DNA from: an uncultured Pelagibacteraceae bacterium
GTDB taxonomy: Bacteria > Pseudomonadota > Alphaproteobacteria > Pelagibacterales > Pelagibacteraceae
Reading direction: 5' to 3'
NCBI GenBank assembly: GCA_902524535.1
Contig: CABZDR010000002.1
Span: forward strand, 62,001-126,000
Length of the DNA: 64,000 nucleotides
The position numbers and the translations under genes are program-made. Positions 1,106 to 7,492 of this stretch are shown here, piece by piece (the stretch's first letter is position 1; every line of letters begins with the position of its first letter). Under the pieces are notes generated by a model. That model was not told the origin of the DNA. It worked only from the letters and a program-made list of their open reading frames with translations, and ran no database searches.

Positions 1106-1161
1106 TGGTGCCCTCGGCCAGACTCGAACTGGCACTCCGCAAGCGGCAAGGATTTTAAGTC
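1106..1161 (-). pseudogene. tRNA-Leu 3' half (displaced, att-like)
   Basis: The 51 bases 1106-1156 are identical to the 3' exon of the complete tRNA-Leu at 1969-2019: variable arm, T arm, acceptor strand and encoded CCA. Unlike that copy, the match continues through TTTTAAGTC (1153-1161), the spliced anticodon-loop sequence without intron. No D arm or 5' acceptor strand is attached, so it cannot make a tRNA. With the 5' half at 2453-2491 it would form an intact intronless 86-nt tRNA-Leu(UAA). It is therefore read as one border of an insertion into that gene. Confidence 0.9.
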
Positions 1162-1217
1162 TACTCCCATAGTTGTTAAGCCAGTCATATCAAGTCTTTT
1201 AATTTTTTGTTTTTTTT

Positions 1218-1247
1218 CAATGCACACAAATGCACTATAAATGCACA
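1218..1247. repeat. Clustered AATGCAC repeats (possible arm sites)
   Basis: Three close direct copies of (A)ATGCAC occur here, at CAATGCACAC, AAATGCACTAT and AAATGCACAT. A related cluster, GTGTGCATTAGTGTGCAC, lies at 2317-2334 near the other border of the 1,300-bp element. Short repeats just inside both att cores are what integrase arm-binding sites look like. That role is inference. Confidence 0.45.
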
Positions 1248-1252
1248 TAATA

Positions 1253-1960
1253 TTATTTCCATTTCTGAATAAATGTTATTTGACCATTATTATACTCATT
1301 TTCACATTTAAGATGCATTTTATTGTACTTTTTTAATTCAAGTTTCTCCTTAATAGACATATTTGAAAAAAATAGAGCTTTTGACTTGTCTGTAGCTGTC
1401 AAACGAGCTGTTAAATTTTTTAATTCCCATTCCATATGTTCATCAATTTGTTTATTAATTTTTATTAGTTCTACAGACTTAATATCTTTGGATGCCTCTT
1501 GGAATAACTTACCCTTATCAGATGAATATGAGGGATATGCTTTATAAATTGTATCAAAATAATCTGAAGTTTCTTTTGCTTTTGCTAATTTTTCATCTGC
1601 TTTTTTTTCAAAGTCAGAAATCTTTTGAATATAAAAATCACTAGTTTTACTCAATACATAATTATAATAGTTGTTATATAGAGTTTCTCTTTTTTTTATA
1701 ATTTCATCTCTATTTTCAATCCAATTAATTGGCCACTTTTTTAAATATTCTTTTATATATTTGTCATTAATTTTTGGGTAGATAGGTGACTCTATGCTTT
1801 CCCATTGTGGAATTTTTGCATGACTCCAACGATTGTGGCTTTCTTCAAATTTTAAATCAGCACAATTGGATAAAGCTTTGCTAGCATCTTTAAAAGAGGC
1901 TCCATAAACTTTTGAAATAGTTAAATAAAAGAAAAATAAAAAAATAAATAATTTTTTCAT
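1253..1960 (-). CDS. Secreted protein of unknown function (element cargo)
   Basis: The protein is 235 aa. A longer open frame runs back into the tRNA, but the ATG at 1960 starts a clear signal peptide: MKKLF, then a hydrophobic run to about residue 20 (VYGA). The mature part is lysine-rich and mostly helical in composition, with one Cys near residue 33 and one near the C-terminus that could form a disulfide. I recognise no domain. The start codon is only 8 nt after the CCA of tRNA-Leu and has no Shine-Dalgarno sequence, so it is probably expressed from the tRNA transcript after 3' processing. It is the only protein gene inside the 1,300-bp element. Confidence 0.7.
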   Translation of the reverse strand: MKKLFIFLFFFYLTISKVYGASFKDASKALSNCADLKFEESHNRWSHAKIPQWESIESPIYPKINDKYIKEYLKKWPINWIENRDEIIKKRETLYNNYYNYVLSKTSDFYIQKISDFEKKADEKLAKAKETSDYFDTIYKAYPSYSSDKGKLFQEASKDIKSVELIKINKQIDEHMEWELKNLTARLTATDKSKALFFSNMSIKEKLELKKYNKMHLKCENEYNNGQITFIQKWK

Positions 1961-1968
1961 TACAAGTT

Positions 1969-2245
1969 TGGTGCCCTCGGCCAGACTCGAACTGGCACTC
2001 CGCAAGCGGCAAGGATTTTCGTACCACTATAGCTTTCGCTACACTTTCGTTTTGTGGTCTGGACTATACCTTAAGCAGTTAAGCTTCCCAGTGTCTAGTC
2101 TCTACACCTTACATTCCTCGAATGTCTTGGCTCGGTATTAGCAGTCAAGCCTTCACCGAATTTACCAGGTTCTACTTTCAGGTTTTCACCTGAAGCACTC
2201 AAATAAATTTAAGTCCTTTGTGTCTACCAATTTCACCACGAGGGC
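1969..2245 (-). tRNA. tRNA-Leu(UAA) interrupted by a group I intron
   Basis: On the minus strand the 5' exon is 2245-2211 (35 nt; acceptor GCCCTCG, D arm, anticodon stem, ending CTT). The 3' exon is 2019-1969 (51 nt; AAAATCC, long variable arm CCGC/GCGG, T arm, CGAGGGC, then ACCA). Joined, they give an 86-nt class II tRNA with a 7-bp acceptor stem and anticodon loop CTTAAAA, anticodon UAA. The interruption lies between the first and second anticodon bases, the same place as in cyanobacterial and plastid tRNA-Leu(UAA). This is the only complete tRNA-Leu in the window. Confidence 0.93.
2020..2210 (-). ncRNA. Group I intron of tRNA-Leu(UAA)
   Basis: This is a 191-nt intron with no ORF. It starts AAATTTATTTGAG after exon CTT and ends with G (GGTACG) before AAAATCC, as group I introns do (U before the 5' site, G at the 3' end). 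The core elements appear in order: a P-like CCTGGTAAATT, Q as TACCGAGCCAAG, R as GTGTAGAGACTAGACACTGG, and S as AAGGTATAGTCC. The order and wording resemble the Anabaena-type tRNA-Leu intron. Self-splicing is expected from the complete core but is not shown by sequence. Confidence 0.92.
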
Positions 2246-2316
2246 TTCCAAACAATATTCTTTTAGACCAAAACCTAAATAATTGCATCATAAATTAGAA
2301 GAAATTATTGTAGTAA

Positions 2317-2334
2317 GTGTGCATTAGTGTGCAC
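2317..2334. repeat. GTGTGCATT/AGTGTGCAC repeat (possible arm site)
   Basis: Two tandem GTGTGCA copies lie about 120 bp inside the right border of the tRNA-Leu element. They match the TGCACAC-type repeats at 1218-1247 near the other border. A recombinase arm-site role is inferred from position. Confidence 0.4.
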
Positions 2335-2452
2335 ATCTACTACGCTAGTGTAGACCAGGGCAATCTAATATATTTTCAAAAAACTGCCCTGTATCTAATT
2401 TTTTTAACTTCGCTTAGGTAGTTAATACGGTGACGAAGTCCTTGTACATAGT

Positions 2453-2491
2453 TTTTAAGTCCTTTGTGTCTACCAATTTCACCACGAGGGC
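2453..2491 (-). pseudogene. tRNA-Leu 5' half (displaced, att-like)
   Basis: The first 35 nt (2491-2457) are identical to the 5' exon of the complete tRNA-Leu at 2245-2211: acceptor strand, D arm and anticodon 5' stem. The match to the spliced tRNA continues for four more A residues to 2453, then ends. No 3' half follows. It is complementary in content to the orphan 3' half at 1106-1161 and marks the second border of the insertion. Confidence 0.9.
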
Positions 2492-2631: not shown

Positions 2632-4776
2632 CTAAAATGTATTTACAATTTCTAGGGTTGCACCATATTCAGGTATTTGACTCATCAAGCTATAATTCGA
2701 ACTCATTCTGATATCGAAACCATTTAAATCTCTCTCATAACTCAAAGATACTTTGTCATTATCTAAAGTCATAGCATATTCGGTGTCATCTGTTCTCATA
2801 TAACCAAATCCTAAATATAAAGTATCACTATGAGCATTATCACTTTGATTTCTCTCATAAATAGTCATTATAGAAAAACCATTATCAGTTACTAAATCAA
2901 ATCCAATATTTGCTATTAAGTTTTTAGAATCTTGACCGATAGATTTTGTATATTCTGTAGTTTCCGATAGGTAACGATATGTTGCATCTGAAGACGGACT
3001 AAAATCTACTCCAAGCTCTAATCCACCATTTGGTTTAAACGTAAAAGAATTATAATCTAAAATATCACTGATGGTAAAACCAGTAGATATCATTCCAGTT
3101 TCAATTGTTTGAGCTTTGTAAACTAGTGCTGCAGGGCCTTTTTCTCTATATTTGGACAATTCTGTATAGCTTAAATCAATTCTTAAATTAGGAGTAATAT
3201 TAAAATTTTCTTTTTTATATGTTGATAAGTAATTTAGTGAGCCAAATATTTGAGCACCATCTCTCTCTCCTGTTCTAGTGCTACCTCCCCCTTTTCTAAC
3301 ATGATCAGTCTTCAATGTGCTCACTCCAATGATGCCCTCGGTAAATTTTTTATCATCATGAGGAAAAGTTCCATAAACAGATAAACTAAAAGACTCAGTA
3401 TCTAAATTAGTCCCGGATGTGCCTACATCAACATCATCATTACCAAATCTAAGAGCATAACCATATAATCTATTTTTGCTTATCTTTTTGTCCATTCCAA
3501 GTGTAATACCCTTGGTATTAATTTTTTTAGATGATGAAGTAGATGTATCTCCAGTTCTACCAATACTTACGCTACCCTCACTCCAAAATGACCAATCATC
3601 TGATAATTTGTCTAGAACTTCATTTGTTTTATTTGATATAGGAATAATGTTAGAAAGCGATGCTATCATTGAATTTGAAAAATTTAATCTAATATTTTGA
3701 TCACTTAATTGATCATTATTTCTATGTCTTCTTAACCAATACATACGGTTAAGGACTGGAGTGCTTGCTTGAATAGCAATTTGTTTTGCTGTTGCAGTTT
3801 GAGACTCGATTAAACTTAAAATATCTTTACCCTCATCAGAAGTAGTTATTGGATCATCACAAGTACCGTCGATTATGCTCCAATTACAACTTAAATTAAA
3901 TTCAAAAACAACTTCAGCCTCATCAACTACAAACATTTTACTTCCATCGGAACTAAATGCTGTTTCTCTTGCATTTCCTAAGCCGCTGTAGTTAGATAAA
4001 TCAAGAGTTCCCTCAAGTGATAGAGTGGAGGTATCAAAAGCTGTTGTTAGTTTATATTGATTAATTACATTATCTTCACTGTCAGTTGTATACATTTTAG
4101 TGCCGTCGTAATTAAAGACAATTCCGTCTATATAACTGTGATCAGAACTTAGGTCTTCAGTATTAATATGAGTAACTCCTGATGTAATGACAAATGGGGT
4201 GTCAAGTGTGTATTCATTCACTTCACCAGGATTGGCATCACTTTTTTCATTTCCAGCAACATACATTTTAGTTCCATCATTATTAAACGCAACTGAGGTC
4301 GGTCTTTTTTCTTGACCGCCTGTATCAAAACTTTGACCTAAATTAAAAGTAGTACTTGCAGTATCAATTTCATATGGTGTAGTTAACGTCCATTCAATAA
4401 TAGTTTTATTATGATCAGCAATAAACATTTTTGTACCGTCATTATTAAATACAACTTGCATAGCTCCATGATTACCAGTGTTTGAAGGTCCTGGTTCGGG
4501 ATATGAACCTACATCTAAACTGGTTCGTAAGGTTGCAGTAGAAATATCGTAAGCTGTTGTTAAATCATACTCGTAAACCTTATCTCCTGTTTGTGCTGCT
4601 CTCATCGATGATGTATACATTTTGGTACCATCATTATTAAAAGTCAATGCAGATGCAAAGAAGTTAGTTATAGCTTCCACCGCTTTAGTTTGTACAAGAG
4701 TTGGCTCCGCTATAGCTTTAGAAAAAAATAAAGCTAAAAAAAATACAATGTAATGAATTTTATAAATATTTTTCAC
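2632..4776 (-). CDS. Autotransporter-like outer membrane protein with beta-propeller repeats
   Basis: The protein is 714 aa with a signal peptide ending at about residue 23 (SKAIA). Five repeats carry the motif FN.DGTKM at about residues 47, 111, 165, 222 and 275 (the last is SSDGSKM). They are spaced 53-64 residues apart, as in a YVTN/NHL-like beta-propeller. Cys297 and Cys306 end the passenger. From about residue 395 the sequence becomes alternating aromatic/polar with glycines and ends in Phe, typical of an autotransporter barrel of about 300 residues. Likely surface-exposed and involved in binding or adhesion, by inference. It is an isolated gene flanked by intergenic repeats on both sides, suggesting an accessory locus. 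Confidence 0.8.
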   Translation of the reverse strand: MKNIYKIHYIVFFLALFFSKAIAEPTLVQTKAVEAITNFFASALTFNNDGTKMYTSSMRAAQTGDKVYEYDLTTAYDISTATLRTSLDVGSYPEPGPSNTGNHGAMQVVFNNDGTKMFIADHNKTIIEWTLTTPYEIDTASTTFNLGQSFDTGGQEKRPTSVAFNNDGTKMYVAGNEKSDANPGEVNEYTLDTPFVITSGVTHINTEDLSSDHSYIDGIVFNYDGTKMYTTDSEDNVINQYKLTTAFDTSTLSLEGTLDLSNYSGLGNARETAFSSDGSKMFVVDEAEVVFEFNLSCNWSIIDGTCDDPITTSDEGKDILSLIESQTATAKQIAIQASTPVLNRMYWLRRHRNNDQLSDQNIRLNFSNSMIASLSNIIPISNKTNEVLDKLSDDWSFWSEGSVSIGRTGDTSTSSSKKINTKGITLGMDKKISKNRLYGYALRFGNDDVDVGTSGTNLDTESFSLSVYGTFPHDDKKFTEGIIGVSTLKTDHVRKGGGSTRTGERDGAQIFGSLNYLSTYKKENFNITPNLRIDLSYTELSKYREKGPAALVYKAQTIETGMISTGFTISDILDYNSFTFKPNGGLELGVDFSPSSDATYRYLSETTEYTKSIGQDSKNLIANIGFDLVTDNGFSIMTIYERNQSDNAHSDTLYLGFGYMRTDDTEYAMTLDNDKVSLSYERDLNGFDIRMSSNYSLMSQIPEYGATLEIVNTF

Positions 4777-4841: not shown

Positions 4842-4907
4842 TTGAAAAGTCTAGGTAGGACAAAATTCATGATGAATAAGTAAATTTTTTTTATTTTATC
4901 TCTCTAG
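4842..4907. repeat. Intergenic repeat, copy B (composite)
   Basis: Positions 4842-4879 match copy C (5651-5688) at 35 of 38 bases, including TAGGTAGGACAAAATT. Positions 4871-4907 match copy A at 36 of 37. It sits between the autotransporter and sodB. Copy B joins parts of both other copies, so the three probably descend from one longer unit. Confidence 0.8.
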
Positions 4908-4995
4908 ATCCGAGAATTATCTGAGTTATCCTATAAGATCCTATAATAATATGATATAAACTCTAGGTATTGCACATGGCAACAGAACGCTCCAT

Positions 4996-6525: not shown

Positions 6526-7492
6526 AAACTTTTTCTCTCCAAATAGATCTTTTTTCTTCGAGATGGATATTCTCATCTTTTTTCTTTGTGTGTCTAATAT
6601 TCGTTTCAAATGATAAAGAGGAAGGAGGAAACTGATAATTTTTATCTATAAAATTTATTATAGACGAATAGGACGGATAAAAGTCTTTTTTTTCGTCAAA
6701 ATTACTAAATTTCTTGTATTTTCTTGAAAATAAACCATTGCCATCATCATAAAATCTTTCTGTGGTTAAACCATATTTTTCATAAGGATAATAATTTAGA
6801 TCATCTTTATTTATATGATTTACCCAACTGGCATAAGTCCAATATTCACCAAAAGAACCATATATATTTGCAGCTTTTATTACTAACTCAATCCAATTTT
6901 GATCTGATTTGAAATGATCTTTAAATTTTAACTTAAGACTTTTTAAATACTTTTTATTAAAAACCATATGATGTGAAGTAAATGTTCCTCTGACGTCCTC
7001 AACAGGATTTATTTCCAATATATTGGTAATTAAATTTTTCCATGAATTTAAAATATCTTGATTTCCATATGATTTATCCTGTAATAAAGCAAACTTTTCC
7101 TTTTTTTTATCAAGTATAGGCCATGATCTTACTGGTAATAAATCTGCATCCCATATTAAAAAAACATCGTCTAATTCATCTATAATATCACTAGCTCCTA
7201 ATTTAATAATCTGTTGATACAACCATCCAGGAGAGTAATTAGGTTTGTTTTGAGTAATTTGAGAAACGATATCTTTTTTTGTTAAACCATATTTATTTAA
7301 AAAAAAATTATCCTCATCCAGCAATGTTAAATTTTCAATATCCCAAGAATTAGATTTATCTTTAAAAATTTTTATCTCATGATCCGATGTTACGACATAA
7401 ATTTGTTTAGGTTTATATTTTTGAGAAATTCCCTCGAGAACTGATCTTGTACTCCAATTCACATGGTGAATTGGAATCACAAATTGGTACAT
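6512..7492 (-). CDS. DUF6492-like putative glycosyltransferase
   Basis: The protein is 326 aa, soluble, without a signal peptide. The N-terminus (FVIPIHHVNW) and the aspartate motif in FLIWDADLLPV at about residue 115 look like a GT-A fold nucleotide-sugar binding core, as in DUF6492 proteins. The family assignment is from pattern memory and moderately sure. It starts 4 nt after the stop of the upstream cyclase gene, so the two are almost certainly co-expressed. Together they may build and attach an unusual cyclitol or sugar; that is inference. Confidence 0.6.
   Translation of the reverse strand: MYQFVIPIHHVNWSTRSVLEGISQKYKPKQIYVVTSDHEIKIFKDKSNSWDIENLTLLDEDNFFLNKYGLTKKDIVSQITQNKPNYSPGWLYQQIIKLGASDIIDELDDVFLIWDADLLPVRSWPILDKKKEKFALLQDKSYGNQDILNSWKNLITNILEINPVEDVRGTFTSHHMVFNKKYLKSLKLKFKDHFKSDQNWIELVIKAANIYGSFGEYWTYASWVNHINKDDLNYYPYEKYGLTTERFYDDGNGLFSRKYKKFSNFDEKKDFYPSYSSIINFIDKNYQFPPSSLSFETNIRHTKKKDENIHLEEKRSIWREKVYDRD

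Follow-up and report, generated by a model that had tools for sequence, protein, structure and literature searches.

A 1.3-kb segment without a recognisable integrase gene splits a tRNA-Leu(UAA) gene in a SAR11 genome and carries an intron-bearing replacement tRNA next to a very probably phage-type attachment site

How does a complete tRNA-Leu gene come to lie between the two halves of another copy of itself? The question is raised by the window, that is, the whole stretch of 64,000 nucleotides analysed here from an uncultured Pelagibacteraceae bacterium, in which a 1.3-kb segment splits a tRNA-Leu(UAA) gene (minus-strand span 2491-1106). Read along the minus strand, on which all parts of the locus lie, an autotransporter gene (2632-4776) precedes the orphan 5' half of the tRNA (2454-2491), which overlaps the left copy of the att core (2453-2461; GACTTAAAA on the tRNA strand, identical to the core in phage attP). 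There follow a 207-bp left att arm (LA, 2246-2452), a complete tRNA-Leu(UAA) gene with an intron (1969-2245; exon 1, 2245-2211; intron, 2210-2020; exon 2, 2019-1969) and a cargo ORF of 235 aa from its ATG (1253-1960; searched as 1253-1963, 236 residues with a leading V). The right att arm as scored (RA, 1162-1262) overlaps the end of the ORF at 1253-1262 and leads into the right copy of the core (1153-1161) and the orphan 3' half with its CCA (1106-1156), which begins 96 bp from the ORF end. Each arm holds 3 GTGCAY motifs, so that 6 of the window's 25 fall in the 308 bp of the arms.

Both halves correspond exactly to the gene between them. The 3' half is identical to 1969-2019 (51/51) and the 5' half to 2208-2245 (38/38), the latter match being longer than the one (2457-2491) given in an earlier, sequence-only reading of this DNA. 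That reading also described a 9-bp direct repeat at the two borders and an intact tRNA upon its collapse, and both are borne out: TTTTAAGTC, which is GACTTAAAA on the tRNA strand, stands on the plus strand at 1153-1161 and 2453-2461, and joining the halves at the repeat yields an 86-nt tRNA-Leu(UAA), the same as the spliced inner gene (exons of 35 and 51 nt). The acceptor stem of the inner tRNA is paired at 7/7 positions. Searching the bacterium's own genome with this tRNA returned 3 matches (E ≤ 0.001), namely the two halves and the inner gene, in agreement with the claim that the segment brings a whole replacement tRNA and leaves both halves orphaned. As the only complete copy found is in the element, the cell would now depend on it; the draft genome has 7 contigs and is 87.8% complete, so that a second complete tRNA-Leu(UAA) elsewhere in it is possible. 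The reported lack of an integrase likewise stands, the 87.8% complete genome having no PF00589 match and three specific recombinases having no homologue in the window (E 1e-4). ARAGORN listed no tRNA in the window.

The inner gene is interrupted by a group I intron of 191 nt (2020-2210). An Rfam search over 1.8 kb matched RF00028 at 53.2 bits (cut-off 50; E 3.1e-12; model positions 1-253; 2220-2039, minus strand), and Rfam at gathering thresholds listed nothing for the whole window. The intron sits inside the att core (GACTT/AAAA), between U34 and A35. The predicted fold of the precursor is better than that of 200/200 shuffles (z -3.47), a result that says nothing on splicing. In a tree of 73 introns from viral and genome loci, the window and its own-genome copy (L236), from which other identical introns were dropped, the window intron is nested among viral introns, within a clade of 14 rows comprising 11 viral ones, one Pelagibacteraceae genome (L201), the window and the own-genome copy. 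Support for this clade is 96/99, and for nested sets 100/96 and 97/88, from a bootstrap that had not settled. In L201, Pelagibacteraceae AH-287-J18, the tRNA-Leu(UAA) that contains the related intron, also of group I, lies at 6900-7200, before an NAD kinase gene; no orphan half was found in the 8 kb examined, so the same intron type also occurs in an unsplit-tRNA setting. RF00028 exceeded its cut-off in 1 of 397 genomes of the order, the bacterium's own. Two further genomes, G317 and G387, were rejected as carriers (24.8 and 23.3 bits, below the cut-off; no nearby 5' half at up to 9 mismatches or 3' half at up to 14), and a weak match in G272 (23.8 bits) is also below it. Group I introns in tRNA-Leu(UAA) are found across many bacteria, and thus the intron type is not new. 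A different, diverged intron was seen in the tRNA-Leu(UAA) of three uncultured alphaproteobacterial genomes (L212, L218 and L227, the first and last of which are in the tree), and the intron pattern also matched in a tRNA-Leu-like gene of two very large viral contigs (L152 and L157; 223,865 and 411,604 bp).

A source for these parts is suggested by viral sequences. Scanning with a 20-nt piece of the 5' half matched 75 viral stretches, 17 of which have a tRNA-Leu(UAA) with this intron (that of L127 truncated by the contig end). In all 17 the DNA polymerase gene or the neighbouring p166 gene lies on the expected side, both being present in 13, and the tRNA is antisense to them; a scan with the intron start returned 24 stretches, which comprise these 17 and a further 7, in part non-tRNA. 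All 16 viral copies that are complete have an acceptor stem paired 7/7 (best of nine offsets), in which they differ from one another by paired changes, as fits working tRNAs. PF00589 was found in 9 of 26 viral records chosen for the search, most of the non-matching ones being short fragments, and the 9 include 3 of the 17 intron records, G426, G429 and G439 (IMG/VR). All three hold an integrase, then GTAGACTTAAAA without a tRNA half, i.e. a core-only attP, and the intron-bearing tRNA-Leu(UAA); in phage contigs with both, about 8 kb separate the intron-tRNA from attP, to which it is inverted. One of the three, G439 (38,268 bp), has genes for terminase, integrase, connector, head and tail proteins. 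We call these uncultured phages T7-like on the basis of gene content; the integrase closest to that of G439 among those found (47%) is from KT997847, which is filed under Autographiviridae.

The two ends of the window element, when joined, align with the attP of these phages. Each comparison of arms was scored against 300 dinucleotide shuffles. LA reached z of 10.9 (G439), 11.8 (G429) and 14.0 (G426), all scores being above the best of 300 shuffles; RA reached 10.9 (G439), 8.1 (G426) and 7.1 (G429), although for G429 the best shuffle (41) exceeded the observed score (38). Against arms in host genomes, RA gave 13.3 (G112), 7.5 (G852) and 7.2 (G272), and only 2.6 for G312, where the best shuffle (27) exceeded the score (25); the right arm of G729 was left out of the scoring, as its contig ends at the orphan half. 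Exact repeats of 51 and 38 nt together with two ends that align with phage attP arms are beyond chance, and the site-specific insertion into the anticodon loop proposed from the sequence is upheld, both halves ending at the core. We conclude, judging from alignment and tree, that both the att site and the intron of the element are very probably of phage type. A pattern that includes the window's joined junction matched at least 120 viral stretches; among the 80 loci listed, 4 have both arms, and all 4 encode the integrase, with integrase, core and RNA polymerase in that order. Neither an excised or circular element nor a case with a helper was seen among these 80, and the right junction GTAGACTTAAAATCCNTGCC had 0 matches in viral contigs. 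One viral contig, IMGVR_UViG_3300046167_000308 (L072, L080; G428), joins a host-like flank (67/75), the 5' half, the left arm and the intron-tRNA, and its RNA polymerase (phrog_414) is identical to that of G439.

Four other viral contigs (L068, L110, L120 and L129) were observed to have a tRNA-Leu 5' half, arms of AGTCY type and a 545-aa recombinase or a homologue of it (70-94% identical). This protein is a divergent tyrosine recombinase (Pfam 23.6 bits, below the cut-off of 27.1); a 781-aa primase-like protein is common to L068, L110 and L129, and each end of L068 (7.8 kb) bears a 5' half. These contigs are candidate satellites.

In relatives, the tRNA-Leu(UAA) gene is an insertion hotspot. 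An extra 5' half apart from the intact gene occurs in 12 of 36 same-genus relatives (hand count; 61 genomes searched). Among 20 stretches retrieved (18 from relatives at this tRNA, 1 from the own genome and 1 from a second contig of G007), the 18 relatives' stretches comprise 11 with orphan 5' halves at this tRNA (L032-L042) and 7 with none (L043-L049). In 15 host loci having orphan 5' halves at up to 4 mismatches (L032-L042, L051, L238, L249 and L252), 17 of 22 such halves are followed within 70 nt by at least 2 AGTCY motifs and 5 are not, against a background of 0.8% among 9000 70-mers drawn at random from these loci; no AGTCY motif is present in 71 nt of the window's left arm. Searches with the three recombinases against the window and 25 genome stretches, the own included (E 1e-4), matched on the host side only prophage integrases in L250 and L251; recombinases of other kinds are possible in the host loci, whose ORFs were listed in part. 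TAGACTTAAAATCCNTGCC occurs in 2 of 397 genomes of the family and HGACTTAAAATCCNTGCC, from the orphan 3' half, in 6 of 399 of the genus, own included in each case.

Of the five others with this orphan 3' half, G852 and G312 have integrases 83% and 78% identical to that of G439, adjoining the orphan 3' half, together with a terminase (88%). Their tRNA matches are limited to the 3' half and no intron was found in either genome; a G439-like layout would put the replacement tRNA about 30 kb from that end, of which contigs of 10.3 kb (G852) and 26 kb (G312) fall short. The other three, G112, G272 and G729, show an intact intronless tRNA, then a cargo gene, then an orphan 3' half, with no match to the three recombinases (E 1e-4); a phage-type right arm is present in G112 and G272. 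Other cargo is thus present at the same tRNA: that of G112 matches PDC-S36 (E 9.3e-42) and that of G272 PDC-S02 (E 2.6e-135), both PADLOC candidate defence families, and PADLOC gave no match for the cargo of G729 or the window. The host flank upstream of the window's orphan 5' half is homologous to sequence in these three genomes and in viral contig L072, not in L201. In G729 and G272 it precedes the intact intronless tRNA (112/123 and 103/116 aligned bases), in support of the sequence-only interpretation, and in G112 it precedes an orphan 5' half (101/119), the intact tRNA having a different flank. G112 was considered as another instance of the window element's layout and rejected, its tRNA being intronless and its element restoring the 3' half. 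Since all three restore the tRNA via its 3' half and are intronless, the window element is the sole example of its exact design among the loci examined. Next to the element, the window's autotransporter gene (PF03797) shares 95% identity with cargo that an element in G017 carries at the same tRNA, and is flanked by repeats with 63/78 identity (within 2531-2625 and 4861-4965); it is perhaps a second cassette.

Delivery of a whole tRNA was thought to depart from the usual case. It is indeed seen here, but it has precedents in SAR11 phages. According to the sections of PMC6811365 consulted, uv-Fonsiphage-EPL, HTVC011P and HTVC025P all integrate at tRNA-Leu(TAG), and uv-Fonsiphage-EPL, with an 11-bp core, replaces the lost tRNA-Leu by its own, so that whole-tRNA replacement by a SAR11 phage is already published; unlike the element, these are whole phages with an integrase and use another tRNA. 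HTVC011P has a whole tRNA-Leu(TAG) beside its integrase, intronless since it is 85 nt long, in which GTCTTAGGAAC is kept and recurs downstream. The Pelagibacter phages HTVC200P and HTVC119P and the uncultured KT997847 resemble the element in having a whole tRNA-Leu(UAA) and GACTTAAAA directly after the integrase gene, which we read, from the letters and not from any annotation, as a likely core-only attP. They differ in that the tRNA is intronless and its anticodon stem unlike the host's; in KT997847 it lies between the DNA polymerase and exonuclease genes, and the HTVC200P integrase is 24% identical to that of G439. G439, G429 and G426 share with the element the attP core, both arms and the group I intron in a replacement tRNA-Leu(UAA), but are phage genomes or fragments with an integrase and the inverted, distant tRNA described above. 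Pelagiphages HTVC105P, S35-C6 and HTVC109P and T7-like cyanophages (PMC8776855) also target a tRNA-Leu gene, but their attP beside the integrase bears the first tRNA half. Cluster J mycobacteriophages, as described in excerpts of PMC3706429, have group I introns and an integration site that runs from the anticodon loop of a tRNA-Leu gene onwards; they differ in their 44-bp core and in that the introns interrupt capsid and tail genes instead of a tRNA. The additive flexible genomic islands of Methylophilaceae stack cargo between repeated tRNA ends, from 330 bp, but use the last 20 nt of tRNA-Lys, and the excerpts of PMC10872708 describe no phage att site or intron in them. Tycheposons, which by the same excerpts also carry cargo beside a tRNA gene, are 4-200 kbp and by definition have a tyrosine recombinase, whereas the element is 1.3 kb and none was found in it. 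In the open-licence literature, including excerpts of PMC3706429, PMC10580990 and PMC6487183, we found no description of an intron-bearing replacement tRNA in an integrating phage; as far as that search reaches, such a tRNA and the 1.3-kb integrase-less form are new. Taken as a whole, the sequence-only interpretation is supported in part, and the points added to it are the group I intron in the crossover core and the probable phage-type att site.

Having no recognisable recombinase gene, the segment would be either a tiny hitchhiker of these phages or the remains of one. We consider it rather probable that it is a cargo element which has a phage att site but no integrase, is moved in trans, and makes up for the split tRNA with its own intron-tRNA. 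The cargo-only satellite proposed earlier is plausible, the att site being apparently phage-type and no integrase having been found, and its rival is an eroded or rearranged prophage: a G439-type phage would have integrated and lost its genes, leaving the att arms, the needed replacement tRNA and one later gene. That history is possible if on balance doubtful. The arms and the intron match the phage kind, prophages of this group occupy the same site in G852 and G312, and selection would hold on to a replacement tRNA longer than to any other part. Nevertheless, the element, which has the attP core and both arms of the G439 group, lacks its integrase and structural genes, none of 12 G439 proteins being traceable in the window (E 1e-6), and its tRNA has the opposite orientation to that in the phages. 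Moreover, the elements of G112 and G272 keep the order tRNA, ORF, right arm, 3' half without a matching integrase. As in a satellite, the window element has few genes of its own, a helper-type att site and no integrase found. With the tRNA inverted and about 8 kb from attP, the element is no plain deletion of a phage seen here.

The remaining accounts are less credible. Exact repeats of 38 and 51 nt could mislead an assembler into joining phage or other DNA to the host, and the assembly is a 7-contig draft, but such a chimera is improbable given that the left type of border (host flank, 5' half, left arm) recurs independently in L072 and the right type (right arm, 3' half) in G112, G272, G852 and G312. 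A simple tandem duplication of the tRNA region followed by decay, with no site-specific recombination, would place exact copies of both halves next to a complete gene; it is very improbable, as both halves stop at one and the same 9-bp core, beyond which the sequence aligns with phage attP arms. That the outer halves, both intact and in the same sense, are expressed and joined in trans as a working split tRNA is scarcely believable, the adjoining sequences being phage-type arms and not intron ends, and a complete gene being available.

The reading that we favour, an integrase-less element moved in trans, would work as follows. The split tRNA, the phage-type arms and the intron are visible in the DNA, and no integrase was found. 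Bearing the attachment site, with both arms, of an integrase-bearing T7-like phage group, the element would be acted on in trans by the integrase of a helper phage and inserted at the anticodon loop of tRNA-Leu(UAA), orphaning both halves and supplying what is, in this genome, the only complete copy found. The replacement tRNA would need self-splicing to work. From its position within the core, the intron may shield the replacement copy from the integrase, which would no longer recognise it. Such shielding is not required, since intronless phages bring whole tRNAs too, and as a rule for all phages that do so it fails: the tRNA of HTVC011P retains GTCTTAGGAAC, and those of HTVC200P, HTVC119P and KT997847 have no intron.

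The cargo gives few hints as to its role. At the limits used, the protein had no match in Pfam, PHROGs, PADLOC or NCBIfam, and no relative was found in the viral contigs searched. Its N-terminus looks by eye like a signal peptide. A homologue (34-38% identity) is encoded in G234 (L056, 1501-2163); by eye it sits among repeated non-coding units, and no tRNA-Leu half was found in the 3.7 kb examined there. A structure predicted from a two-sequence alignment only (mean pLDDT 69.1) had no Foldseek match in the PDB at E ≤ 0.001.

If the favoured reading is true, a very small means of moving between genomes would consist of an att site, a tRNA that the host needs and a single gene, a self-splicing intron would be tied to a phage integration site, and the locus would be a testable case of an element that its host could shed only through exact excision. 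More tentatively, integrase-free cassettes may form a class of their own in SAR11, with arms that copy those of helper integrases at a single tRNA gene; the window type, with its intron in the crossover core, would create host dependence and close the site to further integration. The hotspot suggests a route by which SAR11 bacteria may receive cargo that has no recombinase of its own, including that of G112 and G272, which matches candidate defence families.
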